From Vibrio pelagius (GTDB taxonomy: Bacteria; Pseudomonadota; Gammaproteobacteria; Enterobacterales; Vibrionaceae), in NCBI RefSeq assembly GCF_024347575.1, contig NZ_AP025504.1, positions 992,001 through 1,056,000 on the forward strand: a stretch of 64,000 nucleotides of DNA, written 5' to 3'. Positions 49,436-53,607 of this stretch are shown here, piece by piece (position 1 is the first letter of the stretch; each line of letters opens with the position of its first letter). Below the pieces are notes generated by a model. The model was not told the origin of the DNA, did not search any database, and worked only from the letters and a program-made list of their open reading frames with translations. The position numbers and the translations under genes were made by a program.

Positions 49436-50359
49436 CTATTGATGACCGTTTCGCTCTGCGAATTTCTCTAGGCCAAGTACCAATAGAATCGCTGCCATCA
49501 TCATGATTACCGCTAGAACCAACTGTGATGGTTGAGAAGTAATAGATTCAAATTCAAATGGAGAAAGATTTTCTTGAATCAACGGCACTTGCTCGCCCTT
49601 GGAGTTAGTGCGCCAGCTGATGGTCTCTTTCCAAGGCCAGATTTTTGGCAAGGTGCCAATCATTAAGCCTGTTAGGAATACTAATGTTATATCTCTGAAT
49701 GAGCGCAGTAGCCAAGAAAGCACGTGAGAGAAGCTTAACAGACCGATTACACAGCCAGAAAGAAACAGCAGTAGGATGTCAATTTGGAATCCCTTTACAG
49801 CAGCAAGTACAGGTGTGTACATGCCGATAAGTAGCAAAATGAAACTGCCGGAGATACCTGGAAGGATCATCGCACAGATTGCAATCGCGCCTGCAAGCAT
49901 GACATTAATGCTGGTTGGTTCCATATGCAGTGGTTTAAGAACCGTGATGCTATAAGCAAAAGCAATACCGAGTAACAGAAATAGACCACGTATTGCGTCG
50001 CGCTTTTGAACTTGCTTGAGTATATGGAAGACCGATACCAATATTAGACCGAAGAAGAAAGACCATAACGGTACAGGGTGCGCGACCAATAACCAAGAGA
50101 TCAGTTTTGCTAAGGTAGCGATACTGGTGAATACACCACCAAATAGAGCAATTAAGAAAAAGCCATTAATGTGGTCGAATGCTGCTTTGAAGCCTTCACG
50201 TTTCCAGATGCCTAAAACACTGGGGTTGATTCGACGAATGCTTTCTAGCAGCGTGTCATAAATGCCAGTAATAAAAGCAATCGTGCCACCCGACACACCA
50301 GGCACAACATCGGCTGCACCCATCGCCATGCCTTTAAAAAAAGTACTTAAGTAGTTCAT
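49436..50359 (-). CDS. popT: DUF368 undecaprenyl-phosphate translocase (PopT-type)
   Basis: A 307-residue membrane protein with about eight helices. The N-terminal GMAMGAADVVPGVSGGTIAFITGIY and central AICAMILPGISGSFILLLIGMY are the two inverted DUF368 repeats (about residues 10-34 and 160-181, cited by their PGVSGGT and PGISGSF cores). DUF368 proteins, including the Vibrio cholerae chromosome-II homologue, have been shown to recycle undecaprenyl phosphate across the inner membrane, supporting cell-wall synthesis especially at alkaline pH. It is monocistronic, upstream of the qrr gene. Confidence 0.85.
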   Translation of the reverse strand: MNYLSTFFKGMAMGAADVVPGVSGGTIAFITGIYDTLLESIRRINPSVLGIWKREGFKAAFDHINGFFLIALFGGVFTSIATLAKLISWLLVAHPVPLWSFFFGLILVSVFHILKQVQKRDAIRGLFLLLGIAFAYSITVLKPLHMEPTSINVMLAGAIAICAMILPGISGSFILLLIGMYTPVLAAVKGFQIDILLLFLSGCVIGLLSFSHVLSWLLRSFRDITLVFLTGLMIGTLPKIWPWKETISWRTNSKGEQVPLIQENLSPFEFESITSQPSQLVLAVIMMMAAILLVLGLEKFAERNGHQ

Positions 50360-50587
50360 TTGTCTTTAAGAGTTAATAATGGTTTGGAGCAGTATACAAA
50401 CTTTGGTGTAAAAAAAGTATGAATATGCATTCAGGGGAGATCACTTTAATTTTTTGTTCACAGAATCTGGATAGGCTGTCTCATTAAATTCATGTCAGGA
50501 AGCAAATTTATCAACCTGACGCTGCACTTCAGTTTGATTTATCTTTTGTTGAAATGAAATTGATTTCTTATTTATATTGCGTTTTAT

Positions 50588-50613
50588 TTGCATAATGCAA
50601 TTGCGTTTTGCAA
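50588..50613 (+). promoter_or_regulatory. Two adjacent LuxO-binding sites
   Basis: TTGCA-TAA-TGCAA at 50588-50600 is directly followed by TTGCG-TTT-TGCAA at 50601-50613. These match the LuxO enhancer motif TTGCA-N3-TGCAA (perfect, and one mismatch), about 65-90 bp upstream of the sigma-54 promoter. Confidence 0.88.
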
Positions 50614-50675
50614 TTTTAGTATTGCTTAGGGAGGTTTTTTTGCGATGTTCTCCCCAAAAATCTGCGCTTTTAAAG

Positions 50676-50691
50676 TTGGCACGCATCCTGC
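50676..50691 (+). promoter_or_regulatory. Sigma-54 promoter of qrr
   Basis: TTGGCACGCATCCTGC: GG at 50678-50679 and GC at 50690-50691 with the required 10-bp spacing of the -24/-12 elements. Confidence 0.9.
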
Positions 50692-50702
50692 TTTAATTAG
50701 AT

Positions 50703-50813
50703 TGACCCTTCTTAAGCCGAGGGTCACCTAGCCAACTGACGTTGTTAGTGGACCTAATTCTTGTTCACACATATATAGAGCCAATCGCCAATATTGCGGT
50801 TGGCTATTTTTTT
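50703..50813 (+). ncRNA. qrr: Qrr quorum-regulatory small RNA
   Basis: A Qrr small RNA of about 111 nt. It begins with the 5' stem-loop TGACCC...GGGTCA. The conserved Qrr core CCTAGCCAACTGACGTTGTT and AGTG run over 50727-50750, and it ends in a terminator (AGCCAATCGC/GCGGTTGGCT, then seven T). At low cell density phosphorylated LuxO and sigma-54 transcribe Qrrs, which with Hfq repress luxR/hapR-type mRNA and activate aphA. Which Qrr (2, 3, 4 or 5) cannot be told without species comparison. It lies on the plus strand between the minus-strand popT and malT genes. Confidence 0.95.
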
Positions 50814-50898: not shown

Positions 50899-53607
50899 TT
50901 AGTATCCCATTAACTGCAATAAGTTCTCAGCGGTACTGATCGCTTCTTTACGGTTGGCGATATTTAACTTCTGGTACAAGTTACGAATGTGGGTCTTGAT
51001 GGTTGTCCCTGCCACATCCAGCTCTTGTGCGATCTGCTCGTTACTAAAGCCTGAGTAGATTAGCCCCAGTACTTGCCATTCGCGTTGCGTGAGTGGGCTA
51101 GTACGCACAAGCTCAGGAATATTAGGGTGGTTGACCAAGTTCTCGACAAAGTCTTCATCGAAGTGTACAGAGCGGCTGCGCTGGGTGGTTGAGATGTCCT
51201 TCATGATCTGTTGCGCACGGTGGCGTTCTAGATCGCCTAGGCCAGGTTTATTACTCAGCTTATCAAGAATGTGTCCAATCGTTGAACCATCAACAAGGAA
51301 GTTGCCGACCATACCGGTTTGGTTGGTCATGTGTAGCGCTTCTTCAAGTAGAATGCGCGCACTCTCTTCATCGTTGGTTTTGATTCGCAGTACCGCTTCA
51401 ACAATCAAGTTGCGGTTGGTGTCTGTCACTAGATTAGAGCGTTTTGCCTCACTCTTCAAAAATAGCAGGGCTTCTTCAGCTTCTTCAAACTGCTCCAACA
51501 TGATGTGCGCGCGTACGATGTTACGCCACTGGAGTTGGCAGAAGTGGTTACTCGCTGACTCAGGGCGAACTGCTACGTTCAACCAATCTTGAATCGAATC
51601 TTTATCTCCTTTCACCTGCCAGAACAGTAGAAGTGAAAGAGAGGCGTTCGCTGTCCAATCTACATGATAAGTGGATTGGCGCAGAAGGTGCTGAATCTGG
51701 TCGATAAATTTGGCCGCTTTATCAATTTCACCACGGCTCAGTGCAATCCGAGCTAGCATAGAGTAGCTGTGCAGGTGCTTGCTTGGCGAGTGGTGACCAA
51801 GAATATCTAATCCTTTGTAGCAGCACTCTTCCGCTTCGTCTAAGCGGTTCCAACACCAACAGATCTGAGCACGCACGCGCAACAGGAATTCATGAAGTGG
51901 TACGTATTGTAGTTGATGCTCTTCGATAAGCTTAAAGGCACTGTCTTGAAGTTCGAAAGCCGCTTGAACGTACCCCTGTGCTATCAGGATTTCGCTCTGT
52001 TGCAAAATCGCCCACAGTGCTTGATGGTATACCTGATATTGGCGTGCCAATTTCTCGGTTTGTTGCATCATAGGCAATGCGCGGCTTAAGTTGCCCATTA
52101 CATGGTTAACTTCACCTACAACCGAAGTGGCAACGATACGGCTGCGGTAGACGGTAGTATTGAGTTGGCTTAGTGCCAATTCTGCTAGCTCGAGTGCCTT
52201 TTCAGGTTCGTTGCTGTTAATGGCAACTTGGGCTCGGAGTGCGTTGTACTGACCTTGCTGCTGGGTATCAAGCTCAATATTACGGGCCTGATATTGAGAC
52301 TCTGCCTCTTCTAACAGTGTGCCTACTTGGTCATAGCGGTGTTGGCTCTGCGCTAACCAAGCACGCAGCATCGACAGTTTTGGGTCACTGTAAAGCTGAT
52401 CTGGCGTTAGCTGTTTGATCGCCATCTCTAATGAAGAGAGTTCCCCTTGGTTAAACATCTGCCAGCCGTGAGTACCTAAGATCTGGACAATTAACTCAGC
52501 ATTGTTGGCTCTTTGCGCATGGCGAAGAGCTTGGTGAGGCGTGTTCTGCTTTAGCCACGCTTGGGCGGCTGCATTGTGCAGCTCTGCTTCTTGCTGAGGG
52601 ATGCGCGCTTGACGTTCGTGAGCTAAAAACTCAGCGAATAGATTGTGGAAACGGTACCAGTTTTTCTCACCCTCTAATGGGTAGATAAACAGTCCAAACC
52701 GGTTGAGAGACTCAATCATTCCTAGTGCGTCTTCACGTTGAGTGAGTGCACACACCAACTCATCATTAAAGTGATCTAACACAGAGCACTGCATTAAGAA
52801 GTGACGAGTCTCTTTGTCCAGCAAGTCAAAGACTTCTTCTACTAAGTAATCCCAGAGGTGGGCGTGATTAAAGTGAGAAACCGATTCTGCCGATTGAGCA
52901 AGTGTACGCTTTTGATGCTGTGCTTGTAGAGCTATCAACTGCAGTGCGGAAGGCCAACCTTCTACATAGGCACAGATGCTGCCCGCTGTGATGTCATCAA
53001 CGCCATCCGTAACGCGTTGATTAAAGAAGCGGGTCGTCTCTTCTGTATCAAATGCCAACGAGTCGTTACCTAACTCTATCATCAGGTCACGTACGCGTAA
53101 GTTTGCTGTGCCAAGTGGTGGTGTCCCGCGACTCGTGACAACAAGCGTTAGGTTGTCTGGCATATGTTTCAAGAAGAAACGCATCGCTTCATGCACATCG
53201 TCATTGTTAACAAGGTGGTAATCGTCGAGTACAAGGAAGCACTCATGATGAAAGTTCGCCATTTCAGCGAACACTTCACTCAATAGAGAGTGCAGTGATG
53301 AGAACTGACGTTTTTCCGCTAATTTTTGCGCGTTAGGGCAGGCGTTTTGTGTCGCTTTATTGAGAGATTGCAGCAGATAGTTGATGAAACGGAAAGCGTC
53401 ATTGTCGCTATCGTCAATGCTGTACCACCCGACGTTAGGTTTATCCACCAACCATTGAGCGGCCATCGTCGTTTTTCCGTAGCCTGCAGGGGAGCGGAAT
53501 AATACAAGCTTATAGCAGTCGGCATTTTGCAGCAGATCTAATACGCGTGGTCTTAAGATTGCGTTGTGTAATCGCCCCGGGCGAGTCAGTTTAGACGGGA
53601 TCCACAT
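50899..53607 (-). CDS. malT: Maltose regulon activator MalT
   Basis: A 902-residue STAND-class activator. Walker A is [14 protein letters not shown] (about 39-52). The NACHT/ARC-like core has VLDDYHLV as Walker B. A superhelical sensor domain binds maltotriose (about 430-800), and the C-terminal LuxR helix-turn-helix is [20 protein letters not shown] onward (about 832-890). With ATP and maltotriose it oligomerises on GGATGA boxes, found here before lamB/glgX, pulA, the amylase and malP. Length is the same as E. coli MalT (901). A CRP-like site at 53797-53812 lies upstream. Confidence 0.95.

Follow-up and report, generated by a model that had tools for sequence, protein, structure and literature searches.

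The intergenic region between popT and malT on the second chromosome of Vibrio pelagius raises two questions: whether it carries a functional gene for a Qrr RNA, one of the small RNAs that Vibrio uses to distinguish low from high cell density, and whether the two LuxO sites that touch each other upstream of it are an unusual feature. Both were addressed in a window of 64,000 nucleotides, which is the whole stretch of DNA that was analysed.

The original prediction had described a complete qrr gene at this place and had proposed an Rfam covariance search as a check. This search returned a full-length match to the Qrr family RF00378 (110.1 bits, E 2.2e-20, cut-off 50, model positions 1-108 of 108), and no other Rfam family passed its gathering threshold anywhere in the window (Rfam release 15). 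The RNA is 111 bases long, and its predicted fold and the Rfam match contain the stem-loop start, the conserved core and the terminator that had been described, so that all the listed parts of a complete gene were found (Table 1). The members of this family in V. harveyi (Qrr1-5) and V. cholerae (Qrr1-4) share with the window copy the first stem-loop, the core and the terminator of the RNA, as well as the LuxO sites and the sigma-54 promoter ahead of it. The gene is complete and typical of a well-understood type, and nothing places it outside RF00378. No phage relative was matched in the phage collection. The annotation thereby gains a regulatory RNA gene that is invisible to protein-based gene calling, and its popT-malT location is established across related Vibrio.

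Table 1. Features of the popT-malT region, in order of position within the window.
Feature	Position	Strand	Basis or remark
Polyprenyl-phosphate transporter (PopT family), divergent neighbour	49436..50359	-	NCBIfam NF052564, 499.5 bits, cut-off 400
LuxO-like half-site TTGCG	50577..50581	+	Starts 11 bases upstream of dyad 1; putative function
LuxO dyad 1 TTGCATAATGCAA	50588..50600	+	0 mismatches to TTGCAN3TGCAA
LuxO dyad 2 TTGCGTTTTGCAA	50601..50613	+	Abuts dyad 1; 1 mismatch to TTGCAN3TGCAA
TTTTTTTGCGATG between enhancer and promoter	50635..50647	+	Conserved in near relatives; no known factor assigned
Sigma-54 promoter GG-N10-GC TTGGCACGCATCCTGC	50678..50691	+	GG 50678-50679, GC 50690-50691, ten bases between
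Qrr small RNA gene	50703..50813	+	RF00378; start is the model's first position
First stem-loop of Qrr	50703..50726	+	Predicted fold, Rfam structure line
Conserved target-pairing core CCTAGCCAACTGACGTTGTTAGTG	50727..50750	+	Same sequence in each of the four qrr genes
Intrinsic terminator (stem 50779-50805, then ATTTTTTT T run to 50813)	50779..50813	+	Predicted fold
MalT, convergent neighbour	50899..53607	-	NF003420, 1408.1 bits, cut-off 537

The two dyads, compared with the LuxO box consensus TTGCAN3TGCAA (PMC3352281, PMC11443567), abut directly, with zero bases between them, as had been claimed. The predicted GG-N10-GC promoter was also present and correctly spaced relative to the RNA; since the RNA begins at 50703, the last C of the sigma-54 element falls at -12. 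Among the best-scoring loci listed, GG-N10-GC was found upstream of 202 of the 205 qrr genes examined, and GG-N10-GA upstream of the other three. The single dyad TTGCN5GCAA is not rare, with five occurrences in the window against 2.06 expected (10 of 100 shuffles contained at least five). The abutting double dyad (at most two mismatches) had a single occurrence in the window, an exact one, against a mean of 0.08 expected by chance (one or more in 7 of 100 shuffles). In the whole genome, it was found at four places, three of which are just upstream of qrr genes, and a backwards control pattern was found at one place.

The location of the gene between popT and malT was confirmed by the matches of the flanking open reading frames to NF052564 and NF003420. 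Four qrr genes are present in the genome: besides the window copy, its contig carries a facing pair, and the large contig (chromosome 1) carries a copy that adjoins luxO (NF041946, 841.1 bits for a fragment of 450 residues). The latter, qrr1, belongs to the same family but differs from the window copy by a shorter first stem-loop, a length of 93 bases in all, and one dyad. Hfq and RpoN are encoded in the genome, as is a regulator of the LuxR/HapR/OpaR family (NF040929, 413.7 bits, cut-off 350). The facing genes lie 7.3 kb apart (592913-600347 of the second-chromosome contig), beside codB/hlyD-like and DUF3612-like genes, and facing pairs of similar distance and orientation were also observed in other genomes, e.g., G009, G073, and G017.

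Synteny, a further check proposed with the prediction, was analyzed at 36 named malT loci, and a Qrr core was found downstream of malT in 23 of them among the matches listed. No core was found within 4 kb of malT at 12 loci, including those of V. metoecus, V. mimicus, V. furnissii, V. metschnikovii, V. cincinnatiensis, V. nereis, and a Salinivibrio, and one further locus ends too early. The closest named malT loci among the matches listed were those of V. fortis and Vibrio sp. D404a (99% in MalT). In the genus sample, 111 of 118 genomes had a Qrr match, with one to eight each among the matches listed. Eight matches were observed in G067, G084, and G110 and seven in G072 and G111, V. harveyi being described with five. 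The seven genomes with no Qrr match (G014, G026, G040, G069, G074, G078, and G117) include one that is 79% complete and one of 1.0 Mb.

The Rfam match, the promoter geometry, the synteny, and the pathway genes all support the identification of a qrr gene preceded by LuxO sites and a sigma-54 promoter, and, judging from its relatives, it is almost certainly functional in the Vibrio quorum-sensing pathway. LuxO and sigma-54 were reported to control qrr genes in V. harveyi, V. fluvialis, V. anguillarum, and V. cholerae (PMC8043402, PMC11443567, PMC3352281, PMC10328515). By analogy, we infer that the popT-malT copy depends on LuxO and sigma-54, is expressed at low cell density, and acts with Hfq on the same kind of targets. 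Phosphorylated LuxO would occupy the pair of touching dyads, which lies roughly 110 bases ahead of the start; the DNA would loop, and LuxO would drive open-complex formation by the sigma-54 RNA polymerase at 50678-50691. The 111-base RNA, together with Hfq, would then pair through its core with target mRNAs, including that of the LuxR/HapR-type master regulator, and this second-chromosome Qrr would act as one of four sibling RNAs. The direction of the response to density cannot be assumed, since an acyl-homoserine lactone induced qrr genes in V. anguillarum (PMC3352281). The pairing of the core with the HapR-family mRNA around the ribosome binding site reached -19.1 kcal/mol, a value as low being obtained for 6 of 1000 shuffles. 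The pairing of the whole RNA of this copy with the same mRNA was unremarkable (-35.4 kcal/mol, a level reached by 43 of 300 shuffles), and for the whole RNAs of the three siblings 0, 3, and 2 of 300 shuffles were as low.

One qrr copy among several may be silent, since qrr5 of V. harveyi shows no density control (PMC2680268). With four copies in the genome, the popT-malT promoter could be decayed or unused and the gene kept only because the other three carry the load; the two-site copy of V. anguillarum, qrr2, has a low expression and is the weakest of four, contrary to a simple rule (PMC3352281). However, no damage is seen in the two dyads, the sigma-54 element, or the RNA, and relatives have kept the same set at this locus; we consider a decayed or unused promoter highly unlikely. 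The LuxO sites might also act on the divergent popT gene, which is encoded on the opposite strand and starts at a distance of approximately 230 bases. A divergent sigma-54 promoter was rejected because no GG-N10-GC was found on the popT strand between popT and the LuxO sites, and a conserved block upstream of popT resembles, by eye, an ordinary promoter of its own; the chance that LuxO acts on popT thus appears extremely slim.

Additional inputs to the gene were also considered. The enhancer may serve a second sigma-54 activator besides LuxO. One candidate is SypG: in V. fischeri it acts through the LuxO sites of qrr1, and its sites overlap with those of LuxO (PMC10162802). A second activator is unlikely, and its input would be added to the main explanation rather than replace it. 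A direct activation by LuxR/HapR, as in the feedback loop demonstrated for V. harveyi qrr2-4 (PMC2680268), would be in line with the 16 of 53 malT-class promoters that match at least 15 of 21 of the LuxR consensus, most of them at one place shared by close relatives. However, when this consensus box was sought upstream of the LuxO sites in the window, the best match was 12 of 21, which is the level of shuffled sequences (class mean of shuffles 12.82), and LuxR feedback on the popT-malT copy seems improbable.

The second question concerns the missing spacer, which had been called noteworthy. Spacing was surveyed in promoters whose RNA contains the exact word AGCCAACTGACG, and one of 205 was dropped as its upstream region was too short, leaving 204. 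Weaker qrr genes are under-represented in this set because the loci were taken from the top-scoring part of longer lists, and the 204 promoters include duplicates, which favour the malT class, because some genomes entered by two routes; thinning of near-copies by shared 8-mers left 129 promoters. Among these best-scoring loci listed, at least two LuxO sites (at most one mismatch each) were found in 119 of 204 promoters (67 of 129 after thinning), and a start-to-start distance of 13, i.e., touching sites, was the commonest spacing (79 of 204, and 35 of 129 after thinning), followed by a distance of 7 in 11 of the 204. Since 13 bases is the commonest spacing among the qrr promoters examined, and tandem sites have been published, a pair with no spacer is not unusual; the abutting sites were rejected as an unusual feature, and this part of the original prediction was not borne out.

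When the same best-scoring loci were sorted by neighbouring gene, touching pairs were found in 41 of 53 promoters beside malT, 20 of 53 beside DUF3612, 11 of 20 beside codB/hlyD, 2 of 27 beside popT without malT, 0 of 3 beside plasmid umu genes, and 5 of 17 others; unlike in the window, the abutting pair was absent from all 31 luxO-adjacent promoters examined. Touching sites are the rule at the malT locus and common elsewhere, but absent at qrr1. Direct contact of LuxO sites is therefore a standard build of second-chromosome qrr enhancers, in contrast to the copy beside luxO, and spacing is thus a simple variable for a reporter test.

A previous report described 61 Vibrio qrr enhancers in which LuxO sites occur in tandem and the loop length keeps helical phase, in steps of about 11 bases (PMC4740811); both the tandem sites and a phase-keeping loop length are found in the window. 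The part of that report available to us does not dwell on the missing spacer, which was counted in the present analysis. In the thinned paired promoters (n = 46), the phasing between pair and promoter gave an R of 0.81 at 10.5 bases, with a best period of 10.8, in a set where most pairs are at a single distance and positions span 25 bases; for these reasons, and because it is already published (PMC4740811), no novelty is claimed for this phasing. V. fluvialis qrr4 has two close LuxO sites at -103 and -89, that is, 14 bases start-to-start as printed versus 13 in the window, and mutating either lowers activity (PMC11443567). The two sites of one V. fluvialis promoter were non-additive, altering either being equivalent to altering both, and the authors noted that the strongest qrr genes have closely placed LuxO sites (PMC11443567).

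Two further elements accompany the dyads. An alignment of 19 hand-picked promoters of near relatives comprised the window locus, THAF190c, and 17 named loci; the other six of the 23, which are more distant, were omitted. The TTGC at the position of the half-site was invariant in 19 of 19 of these promoters, and so was TTTnTGCG, located between enhancer and promoter; the latter was not seen in most of the six more distant malT-locus promoters outside the alignment. Among the 46 thinned paired promoters, 15 had TTGC at an offset of 10 or 11 bases ahead of the pair, versus 7 hits over the other 33 offsets combined. The conservation of both elements could reflect shared ancestry rather than function. 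A more speculative reading, to which we assign a fairly low probability, is that the half-site and the two dyads form a graded enhancer on which LuxO is cooperative, while TTTnTGCG may bind a further regulator within the loop and provide the malT-locus Qrr with an input of its own, for which the LuxT input of V. harveyi qrr1 would be the model.

Finally, qrr genes were also observed on plasmids. Three are located beside umuDC, on a 32.6 kb plasmid of V. vulnificus (L217:6037-6140, 93.9 bits), a 180 kb plasmid of V. navarrensis typed as conjugative MOBF/MPF_F (L218:6028-6129, 94.6 bits), and a 90 kb plasmid of V. cidicii (L219:4028-4129, 94.6 bits). All three have LuxO-like dyads, and their sigma-54 element ends with GA instead of GC, and parA/parB-like genes are near in the two annotated plasmids. 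Near full-length DNA of the umuDC-plasmid qrr was found in 1 of 227 genomes of the genus, and a literature search by title found no paper on a plasmid qrr gene beside umuDC. A plasmid carrying such a gene could feed the quorum-sensing pathway of its host. Qrr matches were also present in a 68 kb linear record of V. parahaemolyticus and a 220 kb record of V. tritonius, both called plasmids (L215:6048-6156 and L216:6048-6156, respectively); these copies are perhaps derived from a chromosome, since they lie beside DUF3612 and alkB, as on chromosomes.
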